Below are positions 25,804 through 61,968 of a stretch of DNA of 64,000 nucleotides, piece after piece; position 1 is the first letter of the stretch, and the number at the start of each line of letters is the position of its first letter. The stretch is from Nitrosomonas sp. (GTDB lineage: Bacteria > Pseudomonadota > Gammaproteobacteria > Burkholderiales > Nitrosomonadaceae): positions 1 through 64,000 of the forward strand of contig JAJFJJ010000095.1 of the NCBI GenBank assembly GCA_021774195.1. Reading direction: 5' to 3'. The notes below the pieces were generated by a model. It saw only the letters and a program-made list of their open reading frames with translations. It made no database searches and was not told the origin of the DNA. The translations under genes were made by a program, and so were the position numbers.

Positions 25804-26705
25804 ATTTAGACCACCCTAATCTTGTAGTTAAAGCCAGTATCTCTAGCTTCTCTGAATATGCATGTTGACAACTTGCCACAAATTTCCTCCAGCACGCTCA
25901 ACACAGATTTCTTCTTAATTTGGCAACAAGCTATTAATACTCAAAAACCCTTTTATTGAATGATACCTAGCTGCTATATGTTGCAAAATATCTTCAATTA
26001 CAATCTAACATCAACAGAAATAGAGGATCATATGTTTCATCGCCATCAACCCAATATTTTAGTTTCCGATGTTAGTGCGCATTCGCAGTGACAAGAATAC
26101 GACTCTCTTTCAGAGAACAACAACTTGTAGGATACCTGTGTAGAAAACAATTCCTTACATCACATGCTCTACCGGCCACAATTAAGAATGTGCATATTCA
26201 AGTCATGATAGCATTCTTGGCACCCTCCAACTCCTGCCTCGCAACATTGGAGATTTTGACGTACAGCATGCTTTCTTAAATATTTCTTCCATTAGTATGC
26301 CATGCAGCGTTCCTTTCCGATATATTCGAATCAAGGGGGAGGGGGGGGCAGACACCATTGTTTCTGTTTGTCAAAAGATCATATGTAACACGATTGACGC
26401 CTTTTAAATTACACTTTCAGGGTGTCTCTAAAGAATCCATATTTCATCCCTACTGCTGTGTTACGGAAATAACTTCTTACTTAAATACCGACCCTACGCT
26501 GCACTGTTAACTATCTCCACCCCTTGCATCTGAATAAACTCTAGATCTTTAAAAGTATCTTCAAATACGTTCTCAATTCTTTCGGTTTCAACACACAAAG
26601 GCCAAGAAAGATACAAAAAAATTGCTAGTCTGTGTCAAAAACCGCATCTCTTAATTGATTGTGACATTTTACAGTTTATCCCTTAGCTTCATTGCGACGC
26701 ACTAT
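25804..26705. other. 900-base gap with TA and repeat remnants
   Basis: Between the cupin gene and gmd. It holds a decayed toxin-antitoxin copy (26030-26335), a run of G residues near 26335-26348, and a partial family C end at 26420 (GGTGTCTCTAAAGAATCCAT). No intact gene is seen. Confidence 0.6.
26030..26335 (-). pseudogene. Decayed ParE-type toxin and antitoxin tail (no MITE between them)
   Basis: The plus strand from 26034 to 26275 aligns base by base with 28231-28520 (the ParE-type toxin gene), with many substitutions and deletions. From 26276 onwards it aligns with the 3' end of the antitoxin gene at 28786-28835. The two parts lie directly next to each other, while at 28.2-29.0 kb they are separated by a 243-bp family B element. 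This remnant therefore records the arrangement before the insertion. Confidence 0.8.
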
Positions 26706-28229: not shown

Positions 28230-28529
28230 TTATGTTTCATCGTTACCAACCCAGTAGTCTGGTTTCCGATGCTGGTGCGCAATCGCAATGACAAGAATAT
28301 GATTCTCTTCCACTGAATACATCAATTTGTATGGAAACTTGTGAAGAAGACACTTCCTCACATCGCCACGCTCTATCGACCACGCTTGAGGGTGCACGGC
28401 GATTCGTAACGCGGCCTTCCGCACTTCCTCCTTAAAGTTTCTTCCAAGCCCCGCATATTCGAGTTCATAGTAGCGGATAGCATCTTCCAATTCCTGCCTC
28501 GCAAAGCTGGTGAATATGACACGCATCAT
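28230..28529 (-). CDS. ParE/RelE-superfamily toxin
   Basis: 99 residues. MRVIFTSFARQELEDAIRYY, GLGRNFKEEVRKAALRIA, then KFPYKLMYSVEENHILVIAI and the C-terminal HQHRKPDYW are the full set of conserved blocks for the ParE-like toxins that pair with CHP02574-type antitoxins. It seems intact. Its antitoxin lies upstream at 28757-28978 but a family B element now separates them; before insertion they overlapped by four bases. Toxin expression is thus cut off from translational coupling with its antitoxin. Confidence 0.85.
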   Translation of the reverse strand: MMRVIFTSFARQELEDAIRYYELEYAGLGRNFKEEVRKAALRIAVHPQAWSIERGDVRKCLLHKFPYKLMYSVEENHILVIAIAHQHRKPDYWVGNDET

Positions 28530-28539
28530 TTTCCCTTAA

Positions 28540-28782
28540 ACCTAGATAAATCAGTTGAACACAGAATTTGCATTGAACATAAGGCTACAAGGCAAGGCGC
28601 CGTTCGCAGTCAATGGCCGTACCCCTTGGCAAGAGCGGCAACACAGTATTATGGCCTTAGATTCAATGCAAAACTGTGTCGCGTGATTATAATCACCTTC
28701 ATGGTGTGCAAAACACTTGATCTCTACATTTGTTATTCAGTCGCACATATGCGGTTCTAGCAGTCAACTGATTTTTCTAGGT
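28540..28782. mobile_element. MITE family B, copy 1
   Basis: 243 bases, ACCTAGATAAATCAGTTGA to TCAACTGATTTTTCTAGGT, with a 3-bp TAA duplication (28537-28539 and 28783-28785). The ends resemble those of family A, the interior does not. It carries an internal inverted repeat (TTTGCATTGAA and TTCAATGCAAA). It encodes the last eight residues of the neighbouring antitoxin. Confidence 0.92.
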
Positions 28783-30251: not shown

Positions 30252-30503
30252 CTAGTACGCAATGACAAGAATATGATTCTCTTCCACTGAATACATCAAT
30301 TTGTATGGAAACTTGTAAAGAAGACACTTCCTCACATCGCCACGCTCTATCGACCACGCTTGAGGGTGCACGGCGATTCGTAACGCGGCCTTTCGCACTT
30401 CCTCCTTGAAGTTTCTTCCAAGCCCCGCATATTCGAGTTCATAGTAGCGGATAGCATCTTCCAACTCCTGCTTTGCAAAGTTGGTGAATATGACACGCAT
30501 CAT
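30252..30503 (-). pseudogene. ParE/RelE-superfamily toxin, second copy, C-terminally truncated
   Basis: 83 residues, nearly identical to the toxin at 28230-28529 up to ENHILVIA, then Tyr and a stop. A small deletion shifts the frame and removes the C-terminal HQHRKPDYW block, which carries conserved basic residues in the family. Family B copy 2 begins eleven bases before its start, exactly as in copy 1. No antitoxin follows beyond the element. The toxin plus MITE were duplicated as a unit, then the copy lost its antitoxin and its function. Confidence 0.85.
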
Positions 30504-30513
30504 TCTCCCTTAA

Positions 30514-30993
30514 ACCTAGAAAAATCAGTTGAACACAGAATTTGCATTGAATCTAAGGTTACAAGGCAAGGCGCCGTTCGCAAACAATGGCCGTAGTCCT
30601 TGGCAAGAGCGGCAACACAGTATTGTGGCCTTAGATTCAATGCAAAACTGTGTAGCATTATCCTAAAATCCTCAGTTGATCGCTTCAGAACTTACTAGCC
30701 TTATGAAATAAAACGAATATTTTGTCAAATGTTACGCACCCTAAAGGTGAACCACGCTATGATACTTATAGCGCACTGTTCTTTATCTTTTGCTACGTTG
30801 CAATTCGTTGTAATAACTCGTTCACGCCTCTTTGCGCCTTGCCAAAAATAAACAACAATGCACTCTAAACATCATCCAACTGAGGATTTTAGGATTATTA
30901 CAGTCACCTTCATGGTGTGCAAAACGCCTGATTTTAACGTTTGTTATTTAGTCACTTATAAACAGTTTTAGCGGTCAACTGATTTTTCTAGGT
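30514..30993. mobile_element. MITE family B, copy 2, interrupted by a family A element
   Basis: Ends ACCTAGAAAAATCAGTTGA and TCAACTGATTTTTCTAGGT, with TAA on both sides (30511-30513, 30994-30996). After subtracting the 234-bp family A element and its 3-bp duplication the length is 243, the same as copy 1. The left flank matches copy 1, the right flank does not. Confidence 0.92.
30661..30894. mobile_element. MITE family A nested in family B
   Basis: 234 bases with perfect inverted ends TCCTAAAATCCTCAGTTG and CAACTGAGGATTTTAGGA. Flanked by TTA (30658-30660 and 30895-30897). Removing the element and one TTA gives GTGTAGCATTATTACAGTCA, which aligns without gaps to the same place in family B copy 1. 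This is the cleanest proof of its limits and of the 3-bp duplication. Confidence 0.95.
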
Positions 30994-31065
30994 TAAAGCA
31001 TTTTTTTATATTCTGTAACAACAATACGGAAACCAGAAACCAAACAAACTCAGCTTTACATCCTT

Positions 31066-31201
31066 GCCGAAATAACTGCGGGAAAGACTTTAGGGCGCCT
31101 TTAGAAATTCACCTATATTCTTGTGAGATCTTCTTTCGTGATTTAGGATATTTTCCTTCTGACAAATTTGTGAGTAGTCTGTATGTTATAAAACACGTTT
31201 A
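31066..31201. repeat. Repeat D, copy 1, with a transposon footprint
   Basis: About 136 bases repeated at 32961-33229. At 31089-31103 it reads TTTAGGGCGCCTTTA. The other copy has a complete 140-bp family C element between the same two TTTA sequences. Here only the seven bases GGGCGCC remain. The function of D is unknown. Confidence 0.88.
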
Positions 31202-31322
31202 GTAACTATTCAACTTACTTCTAGAATTCACTATTTCTGCGTTACAAAATGATCATTTACACGTGTAAACTCACATTTTGCGCCTTGAACTGATGAAGTC
31301 TAGAGGCAATCAGAACAGTTAC
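31202..31322. repeat. 121-bp foldback repeat E, copy 1
   Basis: GTAACTATTCAAC to CAGAACAGTTAC, with an inner perfect palindrome TTTACACGTGTAAA and nested inverted segments, so the whole unit can fold on itself. It directly follows repeat D copy 1. It is the same length as the copies at 57775, 59462 and 61848. Confidence 0.9.
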
Positions 31323-31332
31323 TGCATTATAA

Positions 31333-31566
31333 TCCTAAATTCCTCAGTTGATCGCTACAAAAACAACCAACATTATGAAATTACAAATAATATTTTTAAT
31401 ATGATGCATACCTTTTTGGTGAGCCTCGCTATAATGTTTATAGCACGCTATTCTTTCATTTTAGCTGTGTTGCAATTCGTTGCAATAACTCGTTCACGCC
31501 TCATTGCGCCTTGCTAAAAAGAAACAATATCGCACTCTAAACACCATCCAACTGAGGATTTTAGGA
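31333..31566. mobile_element. MITE family A, copy upstream of the Fic gene
   Basis: 234 bases, TCCTAAATTCCTCAGTTG to CAACTGAGGATTTTAGGA, with TAA duplicated (31330-31332 and 31567-31569). It ends 178 bases before the start of the Fic frame and could influence its transcription. Confidence 0.92.
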
Positions 31567-31744
31567 TAATCCGTTGTGATGCTGTCAATGAATGATTTGT
31601 GTGGCGCTGTTTTCTTCAATACGCCGATTACGTCTTCTACTCATTTTTGTAGAAAATTGAGAAAACCACTGGCAATCTTCTCAAAAAAACGTATTATTGA
31701 GAAAGTAGATTTAAAGCTTCTCAAAAATGCAGGATTTAGAGAAT

Positions 31745-32816
31745 ATGAGCACCCTAGAATTAAAACCACTACCACCTGAAGGAATAATAGAAACAGCAGA
31801 TGTTCTTCGTGAGCTTGTCCAAGCACACCGGTATCTTGCCGAATTGAAAGGTGTGGCTAAGACAATCCTTAATGAAAATATATTGCTTTCTACATTGCCT
31901 TTACAAGAAGCCCAGAGCAGTTCTGAAATTGAGAATATCATCACGACGCAAGATGCACTGTATAAACACCAGCTACAAACGAGTATAGCTGATCCCATTA
32001 CAAAAGAAGTTTCACACTATGTTGATGCGCTGCATTTCGGATATCAGAAGGTCAAAAAAAAATGCGCTGACATTAAATACTATTCTTGAAATCCAGGGAA
32101 TTTTGGAGGGTAATCGTGCAGATTTTAGAAAAACACCTGGCACTGTCCTTAAGAATGAAAAAACGGGAGAAATTGTGTTTGAGCCACCTTCTCCTGAGAA
32201 AGTAACGGAATATATGTCAATGCTAGAGCATTTTATAAACGATGAGTCGGAAATCGACCCTTTAGTAAGAATGGCGCTGATCCATCACCAATTTGAAACA
32301 ATACATCCTTTTTATGATGGAAATGGAAGGACAGGCCGCATCATAAATATTTTGTATCTCGTGCAAACAGGTTTGCTCGATACACCCATACTTTATTTAA
32401 GCCGGTATATTAACCAAACAAAAGACGAATATTATTCAAAACTGCAAAATACTCGAGAACACTCCGGTTGGGAGTCATGGGTTATTTATATGTTACGCGG
32501 TGTCACATTGACAGCAAAACATACAACGAGCCTGATTGAAAATATCCGTGATTTATTAATTGCCCAAAAGCAGCATATACGTAAAAAGCATAAATTTTAC
32601 AGCCAGAATCTTATCAACAATCTGTTCCGTCATCCCTATACAAAAGTTGCGTTCCTAGAAAATGATCTTCAAGTCTCACGCGCAACAGCAACCCGATATC
32701 TTGATGCTTTGGCAAAAGATGGCGTGTTGCAAAAATATAAGCTGGGAAGAGAAAATTTTTACATTAATCATGATTTAGTCGATCTGCTTTTTAAGTTGCC
32801 TGAGTTGCGAAAATAA
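31745..32816 (+). pseudogene. Fic-family AMP transferase, frameshifted at a nine-A tract
   Basis: Two frames make one protein. The first begins MSTLELKPLPPEG and includes the inhibitory-helix motif in AQSSSEIENIITTQD (S-x-x-x-E-N), as in Fic proteins with an N-terminal inhibitory helix. It stops soon after a run of nine A residues at 32054-32062. With eight A residues the frame joins the second part, which holds the catalytic HPFYDGNGRTGRI and a C-terminal winged helix (FLENDLQVSRATATRYLDAL). The restored protein would have 356 residues, the normal length. It would move AMP from ATP onto target proteins. The break may be real decay, a phase-variable tract, a site read through by slippage, or a sequencing error. 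Confidence 0.85.
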
Positions 32817-32960
32817 AAAACTGTCATCCGTCACGAAGCGAAATTCGAACAAACGAAGTGTGAGCAGGTGCACAAATTTTTACTTTTGCTGTGACTTTAG
32901 GATAACTGCAAGATGTGCGTTGTTGTACTACAAAATGTACCATTTCCTAGCCCTGCCCCT

Positions 32961-33229
32961 GCCGAAATAACTGCGGAAAAGACTTTAGGGCGCCTCTAAA
33001 AATTCGGATTTCTAAACAAGACAAGGCGAGAACAAAAAATATTGACGCAGCATATAACTGATATGTAAGGAAATATTTTTTTGAGTAACGCAGTATTGTG
33101 ACGAAATATGGATTTTTAGAGGTGCCCTTTAGAAATTCGCCTATATTCTTGTAAGATCTTCTTTCGTGATTTAGGATATTTCCATTCAGACAAATTTGTG
33201 AGTAACCTGTATGTTATAAGACACGTTTA
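32961..33229. repeat. Repeat D, copy 2, carrying a family C element
   Basis: Same 136-base sequence as 31066-31201, split at 32988 by a complete family C element. From 32817 to 32960 there is no gene; the stretch only holds the 3' flank of the Fic gene. Confidence 0.88.
32988..33127. mobile_element. MITE family C, copy in repeat D
   Basis: 140 bases, GGGCGCCTCTAAAAATTCGG to a terminal TTTTTAGAGGTGCCC, flanked by TTTA on both sides (32984-32987, 33128-33131). It contains no coding sequence. The same element occurs at 40227, 53650, 62066 and, diverged, at 44505. Confidence 0.92.
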
Positions 33230-33285: not shown

Positions 33286-33597
33286 ATGATTGACTGGACA
33301 CAAATAGTTGGCTTTGACTGGGATGAAGGTAATTCTCGCAAGAACATAGAGAAGCACGACGTCGGACAACCCGAAGCGGAACAAGTGTTCTTTAACCAGC
33401 CAGTCCTGATTTTGGCAGATTCTAAGCATAGCCAAAGGGAAGTGCGTTACCATGCTCTTGGCATCACTGATGATGCTCGGTTACTGCACATTACCTTTAC
33501 ACTACGAAATAGCAGAAAATTGATCCGAATAATTTCCGCTCGTGACATGCACCGTAAAGAGAAAGTTTTCTATGAACAAAACCCGAAAGATTCCTAA
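33286..33597 (+). CDS. brnT: BrnT-family ribonuclease toxin
   Basis: 103 residues. FDWDEGNSRKNIEKHDVG is the conserved start of BrnT (WD-x-x-K-x-x-x-N-x-x-KH-like), followed by ALGITDDARLLHITFTLR and IRIISARDMHRKEKVFY with the catalytic Arg-Ser-His-type region at the end. BrnT folds like RelE and cleaves RNA. It is first in the operon, and brnA starts 26 bases before its end, the known brnT-brnA order. Confidence 0.9.
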   Translation: MIDWTQIVGFDWDEGNSRKNIEKHDVGQPEAEQVFFNQPVLILADSKHSQREVRYHALGITDDARLLHITFTLRNSRKLIRIISARDMHRKEKVFYEQNPKDS

Positions 33598-33844
33598 ATT
33601 TAAAACTGAAGCTGATGAACGAGCTTTCTGGGAAAGCCATGACTCCAGCGAATATGTTGACTGGATTAAGGCTCAACCAACTTCTTTTCCCAATCTAAAA
33701 CCATCTACTAAAACAATTTCGCTCAGACTACCTGAAGCTTTGTTGGACCGCATAAAGATTGAAGCAAATAAGCGCGACATGCCATATCAATCTTTGATTA
33801 AAGTATGGCTTGCCGATGATGTAGAAGAAAGCCGTCGCTCTTGA
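33572..33844 (+). CDS. brnA: BrnA-type antitoxin
   Basis: 90 residues from the ATG at 33572. FKTEADERAFWESHDSSEYV and ISLRLPEALLDRIKIEANKR (a C-terminal ribbon-helix-helix) are the CopG/BrnA pattern, with the toxin-binding part first. It overlaps brnT and its end overlaps the convergent, broken HEPN gene. The module seems intact. Confidence 0.88.
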   Translation: MNKTRKIPKFKTEADERAFWESHDSSEYVDWIKAQPTSFPNLKPSTKTISLRLPEALLDRIKIEANKRDMPYQSLIKVWLADDVEESRRS

Positions 33845-44504: not shown

Positions 44505-44644
44505 GGGCACTTCTAAAAATTGCTAGTTCGCCCAGATTCAAGATACGGGAAAAATTTTGCAGCGCTGCATATGATTCATATCTATGAGAGAGGGATTCGC
44601 CGTAACACAGCGGTTGGAATGGAACTTTTATTTTAGAAGCACCC
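44505..44644. mobile_element. MITE family C, diverged copy
   Basis: 140 bases from GGGCACTTCTAAAAATTGCT to TTTTATTTTAGAAGCACCC. Ends and length fit family C; the interior is very different, so this is a separate subfamily. No clear target duplication. From 44645 to 44945 no gene is seen; GATGCAACATATGAG-like sequence near 44733 (complement) also occurs near 29066. Confidence 0.75.
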
Positions 44645-46803: not shown

Positions 46804-47205
46804 TCCGAAAATCTTCAGTTGACCGCTAAAACTGTCTACAAGTGACTGAATAAAAGATGTGAGACACAAGCGTCTTGTTTAACTTGAAGATGATTGCAAT
46901 AACGCTACACAGTTTTGCGTTGAACCTAAAATCCTCAGTTGATCGCTTCGGCATTGACCAGTCTTATGAAACGAAACAAATATTTTGTCAGATGTCACGT
47001 ACCCAAAAGGCGAACCACGCTATGATGCTTATAGCACACTGTTCTTTATCTTTTGCTGCGTTGCAGCTCGTTGTAATAAATAGTTATTACTCCTCACTGC
47101 GCATTGCAAAAAAAATAAACAACAATGCACTCTAAGCACCACCCAACCGAGGATTCTAGGTTGAATCTAAGGACACAATACTGTGTTCAAGTGATTTTTC
47201 TAGCT
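46804..47205. mobile_element. MITE family B, copy 3 (inverted), interrupted by family A
   Basis: Starts TCCGAAAATCTTCAGTTGAC and ends near ATTTTTCTAGCT. The left ~120 bases match the complement of copy 2 (CAGTTGACCGCTAAAACTGT); the right part is shortened after ATACTGTGTT. A complete family A element sits at 46924-47161. From 47206 to 47387 I see nothing recognisable. Confidence 0.85.
46924..47161. mobile_element. MITE family A nested in family B copy 3
   Basis: 238 bases, ACCTAAAATCCTCAGTTGAT to CAACCGAGGATTCTAGGT, with TGA duplicated (46921-46923, 47162-47164). The target within family B (GCGTTGAATCTAAGG restored) is different from that of the nested copy at 30661, so the two nestings are independent. 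Confidence 0.92.
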
Positions 47206-57739: not shown

Positions 57740-57774
57740 AGTTTTATATGAACCAATTAATTGTTAAATTTAAG

Positions 57775-57895
57775 GTAACTATTCAGCTTACCCCTATAAT
57801 CCGCCATTTCGCTGTTACAAAATGATCATTTACACGTGTAAACTCACATTTTGTGCCTTGAACTGACGAATTATAGGAGCAATCTGAACAGTTAC
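57775..57895. repeat. 121-bp foldback repeat E, copy 2
   Basis: GTAACTATTCAGCTTACCCC to a terminal AATCTGAACAGTTAC, with the inner TTTACACGTGTAAA palindrome. It lies 36 bases upstream of the rph start, so it sits in or near the rph promoter. Confidence 0.92.
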
Positions 57896-59429: not shown

Positions 59430-59461
59430 TTAAAAATATAGTAACTATTCAGTGTATTGCG

Positions 59462-59582
59462 GTAACTGTTCTGATTGCCCCTAGAATCCATCAGTTCAAG
59501 GCACAAAATGTGAGTCTACACGTGTAAATGATCATTTTGTAACGCAGAAATGGTGAATTCTAGGGGTGAGCTGAATAGTTAC
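59462..59582. repeat. 121-bp foldback repeat E, copy 3 (inverted)
   Basis: GTAACTGTTCTGATTGCCCC to a terminal TGAGCTGAATAGTTAC. It is inverted relative to copies 1, 2 and 4 and lies between the divergent SPOR-like and cytochrome c4 genes. A partial end (GTAACTATTCAGTG) sits just left at 59441. A promoter role is possible. Confidence 0.92.
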
Positions 59583-59725
59583 TAAAAATATTTGTATTAA
59601 GAACACATCGATTCATTGAATTTTCTTGTTAACAATCCACTGCCTTGATAGAATGCGATGTTACGCTCATCAATAGAAAAATTACTAAATTTTAGTTAGC
59701 TTTATATAAAAACGGAATACGAAAT

Positions 59726-61803: not shown

Positions 61804-61847
61804 TTATAAATACTCGCTATATATTAATAAAACATTCAAAAACTTAG

Positions 61848-61968
61848 GTAACGATTCAGCTCACACCTAGAATTCACCATTTCTGCATTACAAAATAATC
61901 ATTTACACGTGTAAACTCACATTTTGTGCCTTGAACAGATGAATTCTAGGGGCAATCTGAATAGTTAC
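61848..61968. repeat. 121-bp foldback repeat E, copy 4
   Basis: GTAACGATTCAGCTCACACC to a terminal AATCTGAATAGTTAC. It is flanked by an 8-bp direct repeat AAACTTAG (61840-61847 and 61969-61976). That is the best evidence that family E moves by transposition with an 8-bp duplication. It lies in the hemL upstream region. Confidence 0.92.

Follow-up and report, generated by a model that had tools for sequence, protein, structure and literature searches.

Genomic context and structure of repeat D

The locus lies in a 64,000-nucleotide stretch of a Nitrosomonas sp. genome, referred to below as the window. Two ParE-type toxin genes (28284-28583 and 30258-30557), 96% identical and 2 kb apart, are found in a region dense in toxin-antitoxin genes (BrnT/CopG at 33286-33844) and MITEs. 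A Fic-family gene at 31727-32816 codes for Fic_N and Fic domains and a SoFic-like C-terminal domain. It occupies two frames and is split at a nine-A run near 32058, which may represent a frameshift, a phase-variable run or an assembly error. Fic genes were the only matches returned by a plasmid search. Among the MITEs is an IS66-like family with ends GTAACTATTCAG..., present in the window at 31202-31324, 57766-57895, 61839-61968 and 59455-59593 and in at least 40 copies in the genome, two of which have 8-bp duplications. Another MITE family, with ends CCTAAAATCCTCAGTTGATCGC, is found at 30657-30898, 31329-31570 and 46920-47161; it also occurs nested within other elements (e.g. L082).

The subject of this analysis is a repeat, D, which had been proposed to occur twice. 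A search of the 2.97-Mb draft genome indeed gives exactly two matches to it and no third (Table 1). Without its insert, D is about 133 bp long, with a left part of 31 bp and a right part of 102 bp, and the two copies differ at 10 positions, two in the left part and eight in the right. The right edge of copy 1 is cut by an IS66-like MITE. Repeat D was sought in 148 relatives and not found. Three of them have weak partial matches: one resembles the left part (82% identity), and the other two match 30 bp of the right part at 90%. Of the three, only the one in Nitrosomonas sp. Nm33 was also recovered when named genomes were scanned for the pattern.

The two copies differ in what they carry at the same place. 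Copy 2 reads ...GCGGAAAAGAC TTTA [32988-33127] TTTA GAAATTC..., where the bracketed 140 bp correspond to an element of family C, exactly as the original prediction had it. The reading proposed for copy 1 holds as well: ...GCGGGAAAGAC TTTA GGGCGCC TTTA GAAATTC.... As claimed, the seven bases are identical to the start of the copy 2 element, including C4 and G5, which are variable in the family. By a rough estimate, seven matching bases together with a repeated TTTA would arise by chance with a probability of about 1e-6. The copy 2 element departs from the family consensus, which is matched by locus L006, by one substitution and one 1-bp deletion. We also considered a composite element extending from 31093 to 33127 (2035 bp), which has matching ends and TTTA on both sides. 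Since copy 2 also has the left part of D, plain D plus C accounts for the arrangement completely, and the composite element was set aside.

Table 1. Parts of repeat D, associated family C sequences and empty family C sites
Feature	Position or locus	Strand	Remarks
D copy 1, left part	31062..31092	+	ends with first TTTA (31089-31092); 29/31 identical to 32957-32987
GGGCGCC, putative seven-base remnant	31093..31099	+	same as first seven bases of copy 2 C element
D copy 1, right part	31100..31201	+	starts with second TTTA (31100-31103); 94/102 identical to 33128-33229
D copy 2, left part	32957..32987	+	ends with target duplication TTTA (32984-32987)
Family C MITE, 140 bp	32988..33127	+	inverted repeats at the termini, GGGCGCCTCTAAAAAT / ATTTTTAGAGGTGCCC; one predicted end-to-end hairpin
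D copy 2, right part	33128..33229	+	starts with second target-duplication TTTA (33128-33131)
Empty C site, paralogous copy in this genome	L153		target TAAA
Empty C site in G019	L154		diverged target
Empty C site in G019	L159		target TTAG
Empty C site in G081	L155		target TATA

Family C elements

With the element as query, about 40 copies of family C are among the BLAST matches listed in this genome, and of 85 genomes of the genus, 47 contain relatives of the family. The elements are 140/141 or 179/180 bp long, most members being 141 or 180 bp, and at this size they have no long reading frame. Listed and aligned copies carry terminal inverted repeats GGGYRCCTCTAAAAAT at both ends. A pattern search allowing up to two mismatches found about 180 such ends in the genome, which is more than family C alone accounts for, and therefore sister elements must share these ends. 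One sister MITE family with C-like ends and a different interior is represented in the window at 44505-44644 and 26420-26560, and elsewhere at L078 and L084. An unusual short element in the relative G048, which has very many C copies, is built from a pair of right-hand C ends that face one another (L109, G048:C27:12214); its flanks show no matching duplication.

Perfect 4-bp target duplications are found at 44 of the 74 family C elements for which both flanks are readable. TTAA and TAAA are the commonest, and a G adjoins the target duplication in 70 of 148 flanks. Joined flanks of 24 C sites were prepared from this genome, and the first 19 were searched against the genus. Four empty sites were recovered (Table 1), of which three are in relatives and the fourth is a paralogous site in this genome; each has one copy of the target and no GGGYRCC. 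Thus, insertion of family C produces a plain 4-bp duplication, and targets without an insert normally lack GGGCGCC. Terminal inverted repeats, target duplications with clean empty sites, short length and many copies are the MITE features seen in family C. With its target, the element is predicted to form one end-to-end hairpin of -29.7 kcal/mol (DNA parameters). The draft genome, which is incomplete and in which this one transposase family was searched, has ten PF01609 transposase loci, and at none of them is the gene flanked by a matching pair of C-type ends; a partner may nevertheless be present. As to the origin of family C, the sole pointer is its AT-rich target duplication of 4 bp, by which it may be of IS5 type. 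A literature search found no report of a Nitrosomonas MITE.

A proposed single deletion between the element ends

Enumeration of all single deletions showed that one of 133 bp converts the filled site into copy 1 exactly (134 bp if the element was 141 bp long). It has four equivalent break positions, corresponding to a 3-bp microhomology, CCT. The exact route requires the left end GGGCGCC, which is the allele of copy 2; GGGCACC and GGGTGCC, both common in the family, fail. We infer that copy 1 once held the element. In the proposed sequence of events, repeat D had one TTTA, in the context C|TTTA|G that family C usually targets, and a C element would have inserted there and duplicated it. Later, in the lineage of copy 1, most of the element would have been lost in one step. 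The break would join the left end, at its base 7 or 8, across CCT to either the right end or the target duplication, so that GGGCGCC was left between two TTTA. Slippage of a replicating strand across the element hairpin would be the likely route, as in the 'nearly precise excision' of Tn10 and Tn5, which depends on neither RecA nor transposase. The hybrid of both ends, which had been offered as another reading of copy 1, is indistinguishable from a deletion since CC/CCT is common to both ends.

A second shortened element is present in the same genome. At G000:C133:9256-9291 (L085:357-392) the sequence ATAA GGGTGCCTCTAAAAATTCGGATTTTTAGTGGTACCC ATAA is a C element cut to 36 bp. Its formation is explained by a deletion between two copies of GGATTT, one at positions 19-24 and the other close to the right end; no longer direct repeat is shared by the two element ends. 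The 36-bp remnant sits in the loop of a 12-bp stem, which may have helped it to form. When the short-form pattern was sought in 85 genomes, the 36-bp form was found once, in this genome, along with one different inverted structure in G048. It thus arose independently and does not represent a mobile mini-family. As one genome has two such end-to-end remnants, repeat-mediated deletion becomes the economical explanation for copy 1. Nothing in either junction calls for a transposase, and both show direct-repeat microhomology. Junctions at short direct repeats (CCT and GGATTT) and a predicted inverted-repeat stem are features of nearly precise excision that are seen here.

Some points speak against a deletion. 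The 3-bp microhomology is short, and the 4-bp TTTA/TTTA pair, which would have given precise excision, was available. In addition, none of the 148 relatives searched has a copy of D that displays the ancestor, whether empty or filled. The same junction would also result from template switching during repair or replication, if a strand took up TTTAGGGCGCC by using copy 2 or some other C element as its template and then returned to copy 1. Multiple near-identical templates for this exist, but two switches would be needed and nothing in the sequence asks for them, so that we regard such an origin as highly improbable.

Age of the copy 2 insertion and alternatives with an older GGGCGCC

An element already in D before the duplication should have accumulated changes as fast as D itself. 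Over 133 bp there are 10 substitutions between the D copies, compared with 0 to 2 private changes over the 140-bp element. If the element had been present since the duplication of D, so few changes would be expected with a probability of 0.015 (0 of 10), 0.065 (1 of 11) or 0.16 (2 of 12). These values are conditional on the totals, and their range depends on how changes are counted. The test leans mildly towards an insertion in copy 2 that is younger than the duplication of D. Such an order of events would break the simple loss story. However, homogenisation among C copies could also be the reason for the few changes in the copy 2 element. The loss of an element from copy 1, as originally predicted, stands in part. 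Deletion between the ends is the best single explanation, requiring one event, with a microhomology at the junction and a second remnant in the genome, whereas the simple story of a shared insertion followed by loss in one copy is weakened by the dating test.

A young insertion would be accommodated if GGGCGCC were older than the copy 2 element. Both D copies would then once have read TTTA GGGCGCC TTTAGAAATTC, where the seven bases belong to a worn C-like end. A new C element would have entered copy 2 at one TTTA, and the resulting 11-bp repeat (TTTAGGGCGCC) would have collapsed. Several features of the sequence would fit this reading. Of the 18 positions of GGGCGCCTTTAGAAATTC, 16 agree with the terminal repeat of C, and the TTTAGAAATTC that follows the remnant matches terminal-repeat positions 8-18 (TCTAAAAATTC) at 9 of 11. 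A match as close is seen in only 1 of 147 other C flanks (about 1% by chance). Terminal inverted repeat variants with CCTTTAAAAAT are present in relatives, and a 12-mer, TTTGTGAGTAAC, is common to C and the right part of D in the flank of copy 2 (shuffle p 0.003). On the other hand, the insertion must have occurred exactly beside the old end, and the 11-bp collapse is a second event. No right-hand end is visible in D. Its right part gives no significant full alignment with C and is missed by the profiles of both C and the sister family. The pairwise and profile tests thus lend no support to the right part of D being a relative of C, although the 12-mer and the 11-bp anchor are suggestive. Overall, we consider a GGGCGCC that predates the insertion unlikely, albeit the most serious of the alternatives.

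The young look of the copy 2 element would equally fit two independent C insertions at the same TTTA of both D copies after the duplication, with the copy 1 element subsequently deleted to seven bases. C|TTTA|G is a favoured target. Still, hitting the same site twice in a 133-bp repeat is unlikely a priori, and the element in copy 1 would have needed the same GGGCGCC end allele, which is found in roughly 9 of 30 aligned copies. This sequence of events is improbable. Taken together, the comparison of sequences favours copy 1 as a remnant of a family C MITE that was probably deleted by slippage; the loss would postdate the insertion in the copy 1 lineage.

Search for further seven-base scars

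If the seven bases were the regular product of excision, similar scars might be expected elsewhere. The pattern TWWA-GGGYRCC-TWWA has 15 exact matches in 85 genomes. About six of these are ordinary C ends with a C-to-T change, and about nine remain, including copy 1, versus about 40 matches to a reversed control pattern. Hence other GGGCGCC-type scars, which the original prediction suggested looking for, do not occur beyond chance in the 85 genomes. In the absence of an excess over the control, the scar of copy 1 is not a recurrent footprint. One candidate, TTAA-GGGCACC-TTAA in G081, is part of a stretch that homologues conserve. For a matched scar-like case in G048, no homologue is available for comparison.

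These results bear on whether a transposase cut the element from copy 1, with the gap then sealed by end joining and seven bases of one end left behind. Retention of both target duplications and of an element end resembles the footprints of eukaryotic cut-and-paste transposons. If true, such a footprint would show cut-and-paste movement of family C, with the donor site repaired by end joining. However, similar scars do not recur beyond chance in the 85 genomes, all four empty sites are clean, and the 36-bp remnant is better explained by repeat-mediated deletion. Furthermore, no C-type end pair accompanies the 10 PF01609 matches, as far as one transposase family in an incomplete draft can tell. 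Excision by a transposase thus appears very unlikely, and deletion by slippage remains the preferred reading of copy 1.

Significance and comparison with known systems

Copy 1 offers a small natural example of how bacterial genomes may shed MITEs: the loss is not clean, and a slip spares some bases of the element together with the two target duplications. Together with the 36-bp remnant, it suggests that family C is being worn down by repeat-mediated deletion between its ends. It also calls for caution in comparative analyses: a short sequence between two copies of a target site may be a former insertion rather than an ancestral empty site.

Family C resembles bacterial IS-derived MITEs in its terminal inverted repeats, the absence of a gene, its dozens of copies and its 4-bp AT-rich target duplication. 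Unlike these, which would be IS5-type by inference, no autonomous partner was found for it at the 10 PF01609 loci of this draft genome. The 3-bp junction of copy 1 is shorter than that in the Tn10 case. In nearly precise excision of Tn10 and Tn5, as in the loss proposed for copy 1, an element with inverted repeats disappears, a short piece of its end stays and the junction is set by direct repeats near the ends; in Tn10 and Tn5 transposase is not needed. The differences are that the element here is a 140-bp MITE and that its loss is recorded as a genomic relic and not as a laboratory measurement. According to PMC4390865 and PMC12524634, it has long been established that Tn10 and Tn5 are lost through slippage between short direct repeats, aided by inverted repeats, without transposase (Egner and Berg 1981, as cited in PMC4390865; d'Alencon et al., as cited in PMC12524634).

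Natural relics of this kind have been described as well. In Sulfolobus pTC plasmids, a 142-bp MITE and ISSte1 have been imprecisely deleted in various ways, and the deleted forms exist beside full ones (PMC4390865). The view that such relics are rarely caught next to the full form is therefore too strong, since they have already been published. As in our case, the pTC relics are natural partial deletions of MITE or IS elements found alongside full-length copies at the same site. The pTC data comprise many variants of an archaeal plasmid from environmental samples, whereas here a single relic is found in a duplicated chromosomal repeat. Copy 1 of repeat D is most likely a further example of this already known kind of MITE/IS deletion relic.
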